24,896 nt of DNA from a virus: positions 1 through 24,896 of IMG/VR virus record IMGVR_UViG_3300010430_000428, one strand, 5' to 3'. Numbering within the stretch: position 1 is the first letter of the stretch; each line of letters opens with the position of its first letter. The position numbers were made by a program, and so were the translations under genes. Under the pieces are notes generated by a model. That model worked only from the letters and a program-made list of their open reading frames with translations, made no database searches and had not been told where the DNA came from. Positions 1-21,129 of this stretch are shown piece by piece.

Positions 1-18
1 CGCGCCTGGTTAGCTTAG
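1..18 (+). CDS. possible 3' end of an upstream gene
   Basis: The first 18 bases can be read as the last codons of an upstream reading frame ending in L-A-stop (TAG at 16-18). Ten bases later the capsid gene begins. I favour this frame because the gene before the major tail protein ends in the same codons, TTA GCT TAG, in the same relation to the next start. In lambda-like phages the gene upstream of the protease would be the portal. Nothing of a portal can be recognised in six codons, so this is an inference from position only. Confidence 0.25.
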   Translation, partial: RAWLA

Positions 19-31
19 GAGGTTAAAAATG
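9..31 (+). promoter_or_regulatory. ribosome binding leader of the capsid gene
   Basis: A strong Shine-Dalgarno AGGAGG (17-22) stands 6 bases before the ATG at 29. The 20 bases before this ATG match the 20 bases before the major tail protein ATG (3013-3032) at 17 positions, including the upstream TAG stop. The sequence shows the similarity. That it sets high expression of the two most abundant virion proteins is inference. Confidence 0.6.
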
Positions 32-1966
32 TTTACTCGGGAATTCGAGATCCAGTTGCGAGGCGATTCGCCGTTTCAAGAGCTTGACAACGGCGATTTG
101 ATTGTCGAAATGGCGTTTTCGAGCTCGGCGCCGGCCGAGCGTTGGTTCGGGTATGAGGTGCTCGACCATGCAAAGAAATCGATTCGCCTCGATCGCCTCG
201 AGGATTCCGCGCCGTTGCTGTTTAATCATGATTGGAACGAGCTACGCGGGACGCACTTGGCCGGCACGATTACGACCGACGGCGAAACCCTGCGCGGCAA
301 GGTGCGCATTACCGCCGCGACGCAAGCCGGGCGCGAAACCATCGAGCTAGTTAAGGCCGGCGTCCTGGTTAAAAGTTCGATCGGCTATTTGGTACACAAG
401 GCGATCGAGGAGGGCGACGAGGAACGCGCCGCGCGCGAGCTCGACGGCGAGACGTATGAACGAATGGTATCCAATCCGCAGCGCGGCAAGCATGACAAGA
501 TCCCGACTTATCGCGTGGTCGATTGGGAACCGATGGAAAACTCGCTCGTGACAATCCCGATGGATAATTCCGTCGGGGTTGGGCGGGCGTTTGTTGGTGC
601 GCCAGGGGCCGGCGCAAATTCTGAAACGGCGGCATCCGCCACAAATGGAAAGGTGCGAGATATGCATACCAGTAACGCCGCCGGCGAATCCGGCAACAAC
701 GCAAACCCAGACGTGAAAGTAACGGACAACGGCGGCGCGCCGGCGTCGATCGATCCGGTAAAACACGAGCAGCAACGCGCGGCCGCGATTCGCAATCTCG
801 GTAAATCCAATAACATCGACGATCGGATTTGCGAGCAGTGGATCCGCGAGGGCGCGGATTGGAACACTATCTCGGATGAGATCCTCAAAATCCACGAGGA
901 ACGCGCAAAGAATCCCAATCCGCTTACTCGCATTGGTATGGACGGAAAAGAAACCGGCCGCTATTCCCTGGCGCGCGCGATTCTCGCTTGCGGTTCGCAA
1001 AATTGGGACAAAGCCGGTCTCGAGCTCGAGGCGTCGCGCACGGTTGCGGCGAAGCTTGGCAAATCGCCGGATGAGCGCACTTTCTATATGCCGTTTGAGG
1101 TGATGGAACGGCCGAACCAGGCGCGGCGCGATATGACGGTCGGCACGGCAACCGCCGGCGGGCATTTGGTGGCGACGGAGAATATGAGCTTCATTGATCT
1201 GCTGCGGGCGCGTTCGGTTATGTTGAACATGGGCGCGCGTCGCTTGCCTGGTCTGGTTTCGAATATCACGATTCCGCGCCTGGACGGTGCCGGCACGGCG
1301 TACTGGTTGGCGAATGAAGGGTCGCAGATTACCGAATCCAACCAGACGCTCGGACAGTTGGCTTTGTCGCCGAAAAACGTCGGCGGCTATACCGAGATTT
1401 CGCGGCAATTGATGATGCAATCCGCGCCGGCGGCCGAGGGCATTGTCGCGGACGATCTTGCGCGGATCGTCGGCCTTGCGGTTGATGCTGCCGGGCTCGA
1501 GGGTGACGGAACGGGCGGCGCTCCGACCGGCATCGCGAATACGGCCGGCATCGGTGCGGTGACGGGTACATCGCTTGCATACGCTGGCGTGCTCGAGTTT
1601 CAGACCGATGTAGCAGGCGCAGAGGTGATGCCGCAGGCGGGCGGCTATGCCACGACCGCGGCGGTCGCGTCGCTGATGATGCAGCGGGTCAAGTTCGCGT
1701 CTACCGCCTCGCCGATGTGGGAGGGCAATATCTGGAACGGGAACCTTGCCGGATTTCCGGCGATGAGCTCGTCGCAGTTGACTGCCGCAACCATGATTTT
1801 TGGCGATTGGTCCGAGGCGATTTTGGCCGAGTGGGGCGTGCTTGAGATCGAGGTAAACCCGTTTGCCAATTTCCAGGCCGCGATTTACGGCGTGCGGGCT
1901 GTTTACTCGGTCGATTGGGGCATCCGGCACGCCGGTGCATTCTCCCGCGCAACAACCATAACCTAA
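29..1966 (+). CDS. fused prohead protease and HK97-fold major capsid protein
   Basis: This 645-residue protein joins two functions that are usually separate genes. Residues 1-190 look like the caudovirus prohead serine protease: a His in the NHD motif (H67), Ser residues in SSIGY (S116/S117), and the typical closing segment around 163-186. Residues about 190-245 are a low-complexity linker. Residues 245-360 are charged and helical and would be the delta or scaffold-like domain. Residues about 365-645 read as an HK97-type major capsid protein. The protease would mature the prohead by cutting the scaffold-like domain from assembled capsid protein. The best candidate cleavage zone lies just before residue 370. 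An internal ATG at 662 with its own Shine-Dalgarno may give free capsid precursor. The connector genes follow directly. Fold assignment rests on recognised sequence patterns. Confidence 0.9.
   Translation: MFTREFEIQLRGDSPFQELDNGDLIVEMAFSSSAPAERWFGYEVLDHAKKSIRLDRLEDSAPLLFNHDWNELRGTHLAGTITTDGETLRGKVRITAATQAGRETIELVKAGVLVKSSIGYLVHKAIEEGDEERAARELDGETYERMVSNPQRGKHDKIPTYRVVDWEPMENSLVTIPMDNSVGVGRAFVGAPGAGANSETAASATNGKVRDMHTSNAAGESGNNANPDVKVTDNGGAPASIDPVKHEQQRAAAIRNLGKSNNIDDRICEQWIREGADWNTISDEILKIHEERAKNPNPLTRIGMDGKETGRYSLARAILACGSQNWDKAGLELEASRTVAAKLGKSPDERTFYMPFEVMERPNQARRDMTVGTATAGGHLVATENMSFIDLLRARSVMLNMGARRLPGLVSNITIPRLDGAGTAYWLANEGSQITESNQTLGQLALSPKNVGGYTEISRQLMMQSAPAAEGIVADDLARIVGLAVDAAGLEGDGTGGAPTGIANTAGIGAVTGTSLAYAGVLEFQTDVAGAEVMPQAGGYATTAAVASLMMQRVKFASTASPMWEGNIWNGNLAGFPAMSSSQLTAATMIFGDWSEAILAEWGVLEIEVNPFANFQAAIYGVRAVYSVDWGIRHAGAFSRATTIT
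647..664 (+). promoter_or_regulatory. candidate internal ribosome binding site and start for free capsid protein
   Basis: GGAAAGGTG at 647-655 precedes an in-frame ATG (662-664, codon 212) with 8 bases between AAGG and ATG. The start lies in the linker after the protease domain and before the delta-like domain. Translation from here would yield a 434-residue capsid precursor without protease. The site is visible in the sequence; its use is inferred. Confidence 0.45.
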
Positions 1967-16570: not shown

Positions 16571-17071
16571 ATGCGGCTAAAAAAACTCGCATATTCGAGA
16601 GGCTTTGACGGTCTGCGCGCGACTGGTGTTTTTCGGCTGCGTGGTGTGCCGGTTGTCTTTGGTGAGGATTGGAAATCGCCGGACGATCGGCCATGTTTGG
16701 CAATCGCTCCAAGGGATTATCGGCCGTTAACGTTTGAGCTCGGCGCGTTGTCCGATCTCGAGGTGCATGTGATCGATCGAGATTACGGCGCGCATTTTAT
16801 CGACGGCGCGCCCGCGGTTTTCTGGTTTGTTGCGGAGCTCGCGCGCATATGTCCGATCGTCGAGTTATGGGATTACAGGATCCCGGAATGCGAATATGCT
16901 AAAACCGATTTCGCGCAATTAGCGTTTTTGTCGATGGCGCCGACCGAGAAAAAGCCGCGCCGACTTTGGCCGGCCTGGGCGTCGCAAGATATGGTCCGCG
17001 ATTACGAACGGCGCCGGCGCCTGGCGCTCGATAAGAAGTTAAAACAAATTTTCGAGGGGGTTTGCCAATGA
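16571..17071 (+). CDS. hypothetical protein upstream of the VirE ATPase
   Basis: I start the gene at ATG 16571 (GGGGCGCG upstream), as the open frame further upstream overlaps the regulator gene and the tandem repeat. The 166-residue product has mixed beta and alpha content with a FGEDWKSPDDRPCLAIAP segment and ends in a basic helix (DYERRRRLALDKKLKQIF). It is not recognised. Its stop overlaps the ATG of the ATPase gene (ATGA), so the two products are probably made together, perhaps as replication partners. Confidence 0.65.
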   Translation: MRLKKLAYSRGFDGLRATGVFRLRGVPVVFGEDWKSPDDRPCLAIAPRDYRPLTFELGALSDLEVHVIDRDYGAHFIDGAPAVFWFVAELARICPIVELWDYRIPECEYAKTDFAQLAFLSMAPTEKKPRRLWPAWASQDMVRDYERRRRLALDKKLKQIFEGVCQ

Positions 17072-18342
17072 CAATTGCGGGACCGATGCCGCTCGGCGTT
17101 GTTGATGATTCGGCGCCGTGGCGTGGCGTTCACGATCACAGATTGCGCAAAACAGATTCCGGAAAGATTATTGCGGCTATCGATAACGTTGTCGCGATCC
17201 TCGAGAATGATCCGGCTATAAAAGGCGCGATTGCATTCGATGATTTTTCCGGAGTCATTCGCAAGCGCAAGCCGCTGCCGTGGTCGGAAAACGCCGGCGG
17301 CGCCTGGACGGATGACGACGAAAGTTTTTTCGCGCTCTGGTTGGCGCGCGAATATCGCATTACTCGGATCCCGGAACGCGAATTGCATCATGCGTTTACG
17401 GTTGTCTCACTCAACAATCGGTTTCACGAGGTGCGCGAATATCTCGAGGGGTTGCGGTGGGACGGGAACCCGCGCGTTCGATATTGGTTATCGGCCTATT
17501 GCGGAGCCGAGGCAAGCGCGTATTGCGCGCTTGCCGGGGCGAAATTCCTTGTTGCCGCGTGCGCCAGGGTGATGCGGGCGCCTGTCGAGACTAAGGTCGA
17601 TACGGTGTTAATACTCGAGGGCGAGCAGAATGCCGGAAAATCGACGGTGCTGCGGATACTGTTTTCGCCTTGGTTCACGGATGCAGGTTTCGAGCTTAAC
17701 AGCACCGACGGTTATCAAATCATCCGCGGCATGTGGGGCGTAGAGCTCGCGGAGCTCGACAGTTTTAACAGGGCCGAAGCTTCGAAGTCTAAAGCGTTTT
17801 TCTCGAGGTCTAAGGATCGCTATCGTAATCCGTATGGCCGGAGGCCGGTTGACGTGGTGCGGCAGTGTGTTTTCGGTGGGACGGTCAATAACACCACGTA
17901 TTTAAAAGACGACACCGGCAATCGGCGATATTGGCCGGTAAGGGTCGGCCGGATCGATCTCGAGGAATTGGCAAAAGATCGCGATCAACTATTCGCCGAG
18001 GCGCTCAAGCTTTACGAGGACGGGACGCCGTGGCATGTGATCGACTCGGAAAGGCCGCTCTTTACAGAGCAACAGGATAGGCGTTACATTGGCGACGCTT
18101 ACGAGGATCAGATCGTAGAATATCTCGCCGGCGATACTGATACCAATTACCAACCGCGCGACGGCGTAACAACTGGCGAGATCCTGACGGCGATCGGCGT
18201 CGATCGTCAACGCTGGTCGCTGGCGGAGCAACAACGCATCGGGCGGATCATGGCGCGCCTTGGTTGGGAAAGGGCCAAGGCGCCAAAGGATAAGCGAACC
18301 GGCGCCCGAACCTGGCGTTATTACCGTCCCAAAACGGGTTAG
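17068..18342 (+). CDS. VirE-family P-loop ATPase (replication-associated)
   Basis: ATG 17068 follows GAGGGGG by 7 bases; a TTG at 17062 would add two residues. The 424-residue protein has a Walker A GEQNAGKST (185-193), Walker B-type GVELAELD (about 224-231), then a sensor segment FGGTVNNTTYLKDDTGNRRY (269-288), the classic pattern of the 'virulence-associated E' family. Such proteins are superfamily-3-helicase-like ATPases, usually fused to or encoded next to a primase in phages and genomic islands. No primase domain occurs here; the N-terminal 140 residues lack a toprim or prim-pol motif. An 11-bp hairpin covers its stop codon. Confidence 0.85.
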   Translation: MTIAGPMPLGVVDDSAPWRGVHDHRLRKTDSGKIIAAIDNVVAILENDPAIKGAIAFDDFSGVIRKRKPLPWSENAGGAWTDDDESFFALWLAREYRITRIPERELHHAFTVVSLNNRFHEVREYLEGLRWDGNPRVRYWLSAYCGAEASAYCALAGAKFLVAACARVMRAPVETKVDTVLILEGEQNAGKSTVLRILFSPWFTDAGFELNSTDGYQIIRGMWGVELAELDSFNRAEASKSKAFFSRSKDRYRNPYGRRPVDVVRQCVFGGTVNNTTYLKDDTGNRRYWPVRVGRIDLEELAKDRDQLFAEALKLYEDGTPWHVIDSERPLFTEQQDRRYIGDAYEDQIVEYLAGDTDTNYQPRDGVTTGEILTAIGVDRQRWSLAEQQRIGRIMARLGWERAKAPKDKRTGARTWRYYRPKTG

Positions 18343-18593: not shown

Positions 18594-19091
18594 GTGGAAA
18601 CTGACGAGCAAACCGAGACGATGACGCAAACCGCGTATGCGGAACATCGCGGTTGCTCGGTTTCGCGAATCAATCAATTGGTCGGCTCCGGGCGGATCGA
18701 GCTCGATGATGCCGGGCGGATCCCGGTCGAGGCGACGGACGCGATTCTCGACGAAACGCTCGACGTTACGAAAAAGGCGCGAGCCGAAAAAGGACAGGCA
18801 TCGGAGTATTGGCAAAACCGGGCGCGCCGCGAGCGGCTCGAAGCCGATCGATCCGAGCTCGCATTGCTGGAAAAGTCCGGCAAGTTGATCGACGCGGAAA
18901 AGGCCAAGCGCGCGCAATACGCGCTGGCGCAACGTCTGGTTTCGGATCTTATGCAACTGCCGGCGCGAATATCGCCGATTATTGCTCCGCAAGATCCGCA
19001 ACGCGCCGAGCAGGTTTTGCTTGATGAATTTCGCGCAGCTCTGGCGGATATCGCAAAGGTGTTGGAGGCCGCCGAGGATGACAACGCTTAG
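18594..19091 (+). CDS. terminase small subunit (Nu1-like)
   Basis: The 165-residue product starts at GTG 18594 (GGGGTAACG upstream); ATG 18621 is a possible alternative. It has an N-terminal winged-helix-type DNA-binding part (AYAEHRGCSVSRINQLVGSG, about 14-33, then RIPVEATDAIL), a long charged helix (about 55-110), and a C-terminal helix region. This is the layout of phage small terminases like lambda gpNu1, which bind repeated sites in cosB and recruit the large subunit. The inverted 8-mer arrays 130 bases upstream are a plausible binding target. The stop lies inside the large subunit gene (14-base overlap). Confidence 0.8.
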   Translation: METDEQTETMTQTAYAEHRGCSVSRINQLVGSGRIELDDAGRIPVEATDAILDETLDVTKKARAEKGQASEYWQNRARRERLEADRSELALLEKSGKLIDAEKAKRAQYALAQRLVSDLMQLPARISPIIAPQDPQRAEQVLLDEFRAALADIAKVLEAAEDDNA

Positions 19092-21129
19092 CGATATCGT
19101 CCTGGATCCGCGCGAGCTCGCGAGATCCTTTGCGACTGGTTTGCTTGATGCGTTGCGCCCGCGGCTCACGGTTAGCGAATGGGCGGACAAGTTTCGAATA
19201 TTGTCGAAGGTTTCGAGCGCCGAGCATGGTCGTTGGTCAACGCGGCGCACGCCTTACCTGCGCGAGATTATGGATCTATTGAGCGATGAGGATCCGACGC
19301 AAGAAATCGTTTTTCAGAAACCGACGCAGATCGGCGGGACGGAATGCGGGAATAACTGGATCGGCGAGCATGTGCACCAGGGCGTCGGCACGATGATGAT
19401 CGTTATGCCAACATCTAGCGGCGCAAAGAAGTCGAGCAAAACCCGCATAACGCCGATGATTAACGACACGCCAGAGCTACGCGGGCGGATCCGGGACGCG
19501 AAATCGCGCGACTCGGGTAATACGACGTTGATGAAAGAATTCGGAAACGGCGCCGGGTTGCTGGTCTTTGCAGGCGCCAATAGCGCGAACGATCTGAAAT
19601 CCACGCCTTCCGGTAAACTGTTTCTCGATGAGATCGAAGAATATCCCGATGATGTGGACGGGCAAGGCGATCCGGAAGAATTGGCGGCAAAGCGGGCGGA
19701 TACTTACACGCGTAAAAAGATGTTCAAAGTATCGACGCCAACGATCGCGGACGGGCGCATCGATCGGGCATATAAGGCGAGTGATCGCCGCGAATATTAT
19801 GTGCCTTGTCCGCATTGCCGGCATTATCAAACGCTTCGGTTTGATCGCCTGAAATGGACAACGCGCAAAGTTTACGAATCGGTAAACCAGGAAACCGGCG
19901 AGCTCACGGAAAGCGATACGCCGATCGATGGGGCAAGCCTGCGCGACTCGGGCGAGATCCTCGATATTTGGTACGACTGCGAAGCTTGCTCGGATCCGAT
20001 ACACGAGCACAGCAAATCCCAAATGTTGCTCGATGGCGCTTGGCGCGCTACCAATCCGGGCCCGGATCGCGCGGCCGGGTTCAAGCTTAACGCGCTTTAT
20101 TCGCCTATCGGTTGGTTTGGTTGGCGAAAAATCATATTGCAGTTTTTGAAGGCGGAAAAGGATGTTACCGGCAAGCTTAAGAAAACGTTTACGAATACGG
20201 TTCTTGGCGAGGCGTATGAGGAACAAGGCGAAACCGTTGACGACGCCGCGTTAAAAACCCGCGTCGAATCGTATCGAATCAACAGCAAGATTCCGGCGGG
20301 CGTTTGCGTGCTATGCGCCGGCGTCGATGTGCAGGGTGATCGGCTCGAGGCGCGGTTGTGGGGATACGGGCGCAACCGCGAAACCTGGCTTTGTGGTCGC
20401 GAGGTTATTTTCGGGCCGCCGGAATTGCCGGCAACGTGGGCGGAGCTCGAACGCCTGCTCGAAAAAACTTACGATCACGCGCTCGGCGGCGAGCTTCGTT
20501 TGCTTGCGATGGGTGTTGACGCATCGGACGGCAAAACAACGCATTTTGTGCGCATGTTCGCGCGTAAATGGGCGCCGACCAAGCGCGTTTTTGCACTTAA
20601 AGGGCAGTCGCAAGCGGCAAAACCGCTAATCGGTCGGCCGACGGATCAAGACGTTTCGTTCGGCGGCAAGTTCATTAAGGGCGGGGTGAAGCTTTGGCCG
20701 ATGGGGTCGGACACAGGTAAAGCGGCGTTCTATGCACAATTACGAATCGATAAGCCTGGTCCGGGTTACGTGCATTTGCCGGCGGGTTTGCCTGACGAGG
20801 AATTCAAGCAGATGACCGCGGAACGGATGCGCACGCGCTACATTCGCGGCCATGCAAAAGTCGAGTGGGTTTTGCCATCCGGCCGGCGTAACGAGGGGCT
20901 AGACTGTCGCGTAATGTCCGACGCGGTTGCCGAGGCGTGCGGCGTGCATCGAATGAACATGGACAGAATCGAAAAACATTTGACGCAACCAAACGGCGAG
21001 CTAGCATTCGAATCGCCAGAGGCCGAAACGCCAGGCGAGGATGATGCAGTACCGGAGCCGCGAAAACCGGCTCGGCGTTTTACCAGTCCGCCTAAACGCG
21101 GAAATTTTTCACAATCTTGGCGTAAATGA
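19078..21129 (+). CDS. terminase large subunit, GpA family
   Basis: ATG 19078 with GGAGG (19064-19068) is preferred over a frame opening at 18982 that lies inside the small-subunit gene. The 683-residue motor-nuclease has a deviant Walker A (KPTQIGGTE, 81-89), Walker B (LFLDEIEEY, 181-189), a CxxC...CxxC zinc-binding insert (C244/C247, C301/C304), and a nuclease domain with acidic residues at D417 (AGVDVQGD) and D481/D484 (GVDASDG). GpA-type terminases belong to cos-packaging phages such as lambda, so defined cohesive ends are expected. The C-terminal 60 residues are a Pro/Glu-rich tail, probably the portal-docking peptide. No portal follows in the next 3.7 kb, contrary to the usual order. 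Confidence 0.93.
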   Translation: MTTLSDIVLDPRELARSFATGLLDALRPRLTVSEWADKFRILSKVSSAEHGRWSTRRTPYLREIMDLLSDEDPTQEIVFQKPTQIGGTECGNNWIGEHVHQGVGTMMIVMPTSSGAKKSSKTRITPMINDTPELRGRIRDAKSRDSGNTTLMKEFGNGAGLLVFAGANSANDLKSTPSGKLFLDEIEEYPDDVDGQGDPEELAAKRADTYTRKKMFKVSTPTIADGRIDRAYKASDRREYYVPCPHCRHYQTLRFDRLKWTTRKVYESVNQETGELTESDTPIDGASLRDSGEILDIWYDCEACSDPIHEHSKSQMLLDGAWRATNPGPDRAAGFKLNALYSPIGWFGWRKIILQFLKAEKDVTGKLKKTFTNTVLGEAYEEQGETVDDAALKTRVESYRINSKIPAGVCVLCAGVDVQGDRLEARLWGYGRNRETWLCGREVIFGPPELPATWAELERLLEKTYDHALGGELRLLAMGVDASDGKTTHFVRMFARKWAPTKRVFALKGQSQAAKPLIGRPTDQDVSFGGKFIKGGVKLWPMGSDTGKAAFYAQLRIDKPGPGYVHLPAGLPDEEFKQMTAERMRTRYIRGHAKVEWVLPSGRRNEGLDCRVMSDAVAEACGVHRMNMDRIEKHLTQPNGELAFESPEAETPGEDDAVPEPRKPARRFTSPPKRGNFSQSWRK

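Follow-up and report, generated by a model that had tools for sequence, protein, structure and literature searches.

The virus record analysed here opens with a gene encoding a prohead protease fused to a major capsid protein, and we propose that this gene is very probably a nested pair. It would yield a long protease-delta-capsid product and, from an internal start in the linker between the protease and the remainder, a short delta-capsid product. The reading is drawn from sequence: the linkers of most related fusions carry an in-frame ATG behind a Shine-Dalgarno (SD) sequence, this pairing is denser there than elsewhere in the reading frame, and the same design recurs in fusions built from other domains.

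The fusion gene and its predicted internal start

The window is the whole virus record (24,896 bases), and the protease-capsid ORF begins 28 bases into it. The gene is laid out as follows.

17..22, + strand: SD of the primary start, AGGAGG, 6 nt before the ATG at 29-31; duplex energy -10.9 kcal/mol
29..1966, + strand: protease-capsid fusion ORF, 645 aa, 69.1 kDa
29..586, + strand: S78 prohead protease domain, about residues 1-186 (Pfam PF04586, invariant columns, AlphaFold)
587..736, + strand: disordered linker, about residues 187-236 (pLDDT <50; little residue conservation in linkers)
647..653, + strand: internal SD, GGAAAGG, read from sequence; -5.2 kcal/mol
662..664, + strand: predicted internal start codon ATG (M212), from the sequence and the linker starts of relatives
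662..1966, + strand: predicted short product, delta and capsid, 434 aa, 45.9 kDa; matches the solved R4C capsid chain 8gta_A (E 1.8e-29)
755..1057, + strand: helical delta (scaffold-like) region, residues 243-343 (AlphaFold helices; named delta by analogy with HK97)
1118..1177, + strand: second disordered stretch, residues 364-383 (pLDDT <50; 8gta_A begins at the equivalent of residue 377)
1178..1963, + strand: HK97-fold capsid domain (PF05065 at residues 386-638; 8gta_A)

The fusion of protease and capsid in the original prediction is borne out by Pfam, which places Peptidase_S78 at residues 59-138 and Phage_capsid at residues 386-638 of the single ORF, both over cut-off. H67 and S117 of the protease are invariant in alignments A1 and A3. 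The HK97 capsid model TIGR01554 scores over its cut-off and the protease model TIGR01543 under its own, while NF045541 (scaf_prot_MCP2) reaches 117.3 bits against a curated cut-off of 525, over residues 20-302 only. An AlphaFold model built on a 49-sequence alignment (mean pLDDT 81.2) has a folded protease, a disordered stretch (pLDDT <50 at 181-232 and 234-236) followed by the helices of residues 243-343, and a capsid domain that is mostly well predicted to the C-terminus. Residues 364-383 are the likely region of delta removal.

The ATG at 662-664 is codon 212 of the ORF, in frame with no stop before 1964, and it is preceded by AAGG at 650-653 and then by 8 nt (654-661), as can be read directly in the sequence and as had been claimed. 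Because pLDDT is below 50 there, M212 is predicted to lie inside the disordered linker between the protease and the delta helices, in agreement with the placement first suggested for it. In one gene such a site is unremarkable, as the 66-codon linker of the window is expected to hold about 0.2-0.3 in-frame ATGs with an SD of -5 kcal/mol or below (hereafter SD-backed) by chance, and its significance comes only from the relatives. Some features of the window count against the nested start. The internal SD is weaker than the primary SD (-5.2 against -10.9 kcal/mol), the internal site folds more tightly (-21.5 against -15.5 kcal/mol, the stretch folded for the primary start being cut at the end of the record), and M212 is followed by His, which no other of 136 linker starts has.

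The fusion gene is overlapped by very long antisense open frames in the window (347-1930, - strand) and in two relatives (L001 1844-3184 and L002 3673-4800, both - strand), perhaps as an effect of codon composition. A portal gene is annotated directly upstream of the fusion in 13 of 20 annotated relatives and, as the present record starts just before the fusion, it is probably a fragment cut at this point. A GpA-type terminase (18982-21129) lies near the other end of the record, and a VapE-like domain protein is encoded at 17062-18342 (PF05272, E 1.6e-67).

Linker starts in related fusions

A protein scan gave 4 viral loci; tblastn found 115 phage records, of which 53 were covered to at least 80%, and 20 were fetched. 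A single-protein scan of genome contigs confirmed no relative, whereas an alignment-based scan did confirm relatives. Profile A1, made from 22 fusions, provided the best 80 of 552 viral loci and the best 80 of 400 genome loci, and a capsid-only alignment the best 80 of 320 close loci; since only the best 80 of the confirmed relatives were taken in each alignment scan, closer relatives are over-represented in the counts marked below as coming from the best-80 lists.

The first set, which includes the best 80 of 552 and of 400 loci, comprised 184 ORFs and was reduced to 138 representatives below 70% identity, with the linker taken to run from the GxGR that closes the protease to the ERxRxxI helix. 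An in-frame linker ATG is present in 136 of these 138 (best 80 of 552 and of 400), the exceptions being L004, a weak homologue, and L109, which has a GTG with AAAGGAG. With the line drawn at -5 kcal/mol, a value picked after several thresholds were compared, 114 of the 136 linker ATGs are SD-backed as against 211 of the 1562 in-frame ATGs that these genes carry in their protease and capsid parts (best-80 lists). The closest set gives a similar picture, with a linker ATG in 48 of 51 representatives and an SD-backed one in 42 (best 80 of 320). After the sets were combined and re-clustered, 148 of 180 fusions below 70% identity have an SD-backed linker ATG (best 80 of 552, 400 and 320); a further 9 have an SD-backed GTG without an SD-backed ATG, and the remaining 23 have weaker ATGs only, with neither ATG nor GTG at the -5 line, which counts against the nested start (best-80 lists). 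The conservation of ATG and SD in the linkers of relatives supports the internal start that had been suggested from this one gene.

L004 is counted among the 138 and left out of the 180, L025 is in both counts though its architecture is a different one (see below), and the unfused L032 was dropped as no single ORF spans both parts. Choosing the best ATG in each linker is a biased choice, and in L007 and perhaps a few others the ATG of lowest energy is probably not the real start; we relied instead on rates over all ATGs and per codon. In the first set, SD-backed ATGs number 14.2 per 1000 codons in the linker, 3.2 in the protease, 4.4 in delta and 3.4 in the capsid, so that their density in the linker is 3-4 times that of the other in-frame parts (best-80 lists). 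The other frames of the linker have 4.5 (+1 frame) and 0.2 per 1000 codons, and the +1 value counts against the proposal.

When the sequence upstream of the linker ATG was reshuffled using each gene's own synonymous codons, the mean SD was -4.56 in the shuffled sequences as compared with -6.73 in the real ones. The real SD was the stronger in 113 of 136 genes (p 1.2e-18), and control ATGs showed no SD excess over such reshuffles. The spacer between SD and ATG is 5-9 nt in 108 of 120 linkers. The predicted short product carries S, P, T, E, A, D or N directly after its first Met in 117 of 136 cases, a preference that other Met codons of these genes do not share, and residue identity around the linker start is about 9-27% between proteins that are 35-70% identical. 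A nucleotide peak at -12 to -8 before the linker starts was left unused, as it is circular when the starts have been chosen by their SD.

Linker ATGs without an SD are seen in L006, L074, L098 (energy 0) and L015 (-3.1), and include those of Synechococcus phages S-LBS1 and S-CBS3; the hosts of such phages perhaps rely less on the SD. An extra N-terminal part with Hva1_TUDOR (PF11160) precedes the protease in the same frame in Roseobacter phage CRP-811 and an IMG/VR contig (L012 3-971, L074 1080-2405). L015 and L022 are likewise extended at the N-terminus, though with no match to PF11160.

Some linkers have a GTG behind a good SD (L109, L187, L188, L220, L221, L224, L257 and L262), and the sequence that follows resembles other starts when judged by eye, as in VSDESNAAAG of L221 and MAGENAAAGA of L191. 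Because elongating ribosomes read GTG as Val, the property shared by these codons is the ability to start translation. A GTG with an SD of -8 or below occurs in 7 of the 32 representatives that lack an SD-backed ATG, where about 1.3 would be expected (0.041 per linker). When all linker GTGs of the combined set are pooled, their SD rate of 18.0% is not over the protease background of 25.9%, and the GTG argument rests on the strong SDs and on position judged by eye. Two of the nine GTG cases (L015 and L100) look spurious, L257 has an SD-backed ATG further upstream as well, and L230, with a weaker SD before its GTG, was not counted.

In an unfused lineage (L032 and L218, which are one contig, and L219) the capsid part is 52-53% identical to that of the window. 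Here the protease ends in a stop, and a free capsid gene then opens with its own AAGGAG-N5-ATG where the fusions have their linker start, which shows the role of the site once the genes are separate. The junctions are found at two places.

L032, 1-400: unfused protease/capsid junction
L219, 2350-2480: unfused protease/capsid junction

Among the best 80 of 320 loci from the capsid alignment, 75 have the two genes fused and 2 have them split, and in the other 3 the contig starts within the gene; the separate genes of L032 and L219 may be either a later split or the ancestral state. In Moraxella phage Mcat3 (hit H62), a relative of the PAJU2 fusion discussed below, the match spans two genes annotated as coat proteins, which may be a further case of a split.

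Other architectures and other readings of the linker signal

Protease-capsid fusions are known and named, as stated in the accessible parts of PMC8601537, PMC9671004 and PMC6536676. Those annotated as NF045541, PAJU2 ORF003 ('prohead protease fused capsid protein') and the ClpP-gpT fusions of Paracoccus prophages have protease and capsid in one ORF, as here. Annotated fusions are explained as gene fusions or self-cleaving polyproteins in the accessible text, which makes no mention of an internal start. A search with NF045541 of 198 genomes, from the family of the Pseudomonas genome that holds L168, matched 46 and exposed two architectures with Phage_capsid_4 (PF25209), one with an NF045541-type protease and the other with a ClpP protease (PF00574). 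Pfam finds no S78 domain in the NF045541-type fusion with PF25209 (L271), and the kinship of its protease to that of the window rests on NF045541 and on the match of the A1 profile to L025, which aligns throughout with this type of fusion.

Both architectures carry the linker start signal seen in the window. An SD-backed linker ATG is present in 14 of 14 NF045541-type and 25 of 25 ClpP representatives with PF25209 (viral contigs below 80% identity, from the best 80 of 537 and the best 80 of 506 loci respectively). In the NF045541 type the linker holds 14.6 SD-backed ATGs per 1000 codons, as against 4.0 in the protease and 4.9 in the capsid (best-80 list). The ClpP type has 13.8 in the linker, 14.7 in the protease and 0.5 in the capsid (best-80 list) and, as its protease part is as rich as its linker, only the contrast with the capsid is left, which makes this the weaker comparison. 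PAJU2 ORF003 shares the signal, with an ATG at codon 197 between the domains behind AGGAGGG, whose SD (-10.8) is the strongest of five in-frame ATG or GTG codons at -5 or below, its own first ATG included. In L298, also of these other architectures, the SD of the linker start reaches -12.3.

Not every reading of this signal involves initiation. All of the capsid might be made as the fusion, from which the protease then cuts itself, with the linker ATG and SD due to chance or left over from the start of a formerly separate capsid gene. Autocatalytic cleavage has been proposed for PAJU2, as PMC8306868 reports, and could yield free capsid protein with no internal start. The solved R4C chain comprises 268 aa of a 629-aa ORF, the preceding part being removed or unseen in the particle, and in the window the primary SD is the stronger of the two. 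However, a relic start should decay, yet ATG and SD are kept in the 148 of 180 fusions (best-80 lists) amid poorly conserved linkers; with an SD beyond synonymous expectation and with GTG sometimes replacing ATG, we regard self-cleavage as the only source of capsid protein as unlikely.

The Met with its Lys/Glu-rich flank could instead be a feature of the protein, such as a recognition site for cleavage between protease and delta, and KE and EE pairs are indeed common just before the linker Met. The GG of the SD, however, falls in all three codon phases (86, 23 and 11 cases in the first set, with 16 of 136 lacking a recognised core), so that the residues encoded vary with phase (KE/EE/QE, GA/GN/GG or RS/RK), and in some lineages Met gives way to Val (GTG) while a good SD is kept; given the synonymous excess as well, a protein feature is barely credible. 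A slowing of elongation has been proposed for internal SD-like sequences, and the stretch might merely pause ribosomes between protease and capsid to aid folding, without initiation. A pause site has no need of a start codon, yet the SD-backed share of in-frame ATGs is 63.8% in the linker compared with 12.8-19.0% elsewhere (combined set, best-80 lists), the SD stands at start-like spacing, and the unfused lineage uses the place as a gene start, all of which makes a pure pause very improbable. We rejected the Met as a cleavage site, the SD as a pause only and the relic start, and we favour the nested start.

Two proposed products from one gene

In lambda C/Nu3 one ORF has two in-frame starts and a common stop, and the long protease carries the short product at its C-terminal end. 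The window gene appears similar in having two in-frame start signals and one stop, as judged from the signals and their conservation, and its long product is a prohead protease (PF04586 at 59-138) that would contain the whole of the short product (from residue 212). It differs from lambda in that the short product would be the major capsid protein with its delta region (PF05065) and not a separate scaffold, so that the protease would be tethered to a shell subunit. An interaction between C and Nu3 is listed for lambda in the accessible part of PMC3224144. The window gene also resembles HK97 in its S78 protease and HK97-type capsid domains, with a modelled helical delta-like region N-terminal to the capsid fold. 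In HK97 the gp4 protease and gp5 capsid are two separate genes, whereas here protease and capsid are the single ORF 29-1966 with a predicted internal start. In herpesvirus UL26/UL26.5 and retroviral Gag/Gag-Pol a minority precursor fuses a protease to the main assembly protein, and the dose of protease is set during gene expression, via nested transcripts or frameshifting. The window gene is unrelated to these and would use nested starts.

The probable course of events is that ribosomes starting at 29 make the 645-aa protease-delta-capsid, while those starting at ATG 662, guided by GGAAAGG, would make the 434-aa delta-capsid, a counterpart of HK97 gp5 (385 aa, length from 3qpr), which it resembles in layout, and this short form may be the main shell subunit. 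Long and short forms would co-assemble via their common delta and capsid domains, so that a limited number of proteases would enter the procapsid, each as part of a capsid subunit. The long subunits, a minority, would thereby carry the protease into the shell, where it would remove the delta domains as well as itself. We infer co-assembly and self-release from the shared domains and by comparison with HK97 and lambda.

The further idea that the short product is the abundant form finds only partial support, and on this point relatives and window part company. Over 169 relatives (best-80 lists) the median SD is -6.6 at the internal start against -6.5 at the primary start, and the internal SD is at least as strong in 95, the primary start being a guess (whichever start codon of the 5' part has the best SD) and the window being computed separately. 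This near equality would allow an abundant short form. In the window the internal SD is clearly the weaker, so that for this phage a dominant short form finds no support in SD strength.

Fusions and nested starts in head genes are both already known, and a nested start within a protease-capsid fusion would, from the sequences, be a new variant. The literature within coverage, to which subscription papers mostly do not belong, and which was in part available, yielded no report of an internal start in such a fusion and no N-terminal or mass-spectrometry data for the capsids of phiHAP-1, VP882 or R4C.

It seems reasonably likely that protease-capsid 'fusion proteins' of phages in general are nested gene pairs, and that an internal start has been either retained or acquired in each of the S78 or ClpP fusions with PF05065 or PF25209, with the protease dose set by translation initiation. 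That the design turns up in different fusion architectures points to a rule of head assembly and not to an oddity. The R4C particle holds 415 copies of its capsid chain, according to the accessible part of PMC10276861, and nested starts would explain how genes that encode protease and capsid 1:1 avoid hundreds of proteases per procapsid. If this is true, the logic of Gag/Gag-Pol is achieved here by nested starts, and a silent change in the SD would be a simple handle on the number of proteases that a procapsid needs. The over-long major capsid protein annotated in these genomes would then be something other than the main shell subunit, and many phages and prophages would need their major capsid protein re-annotated.
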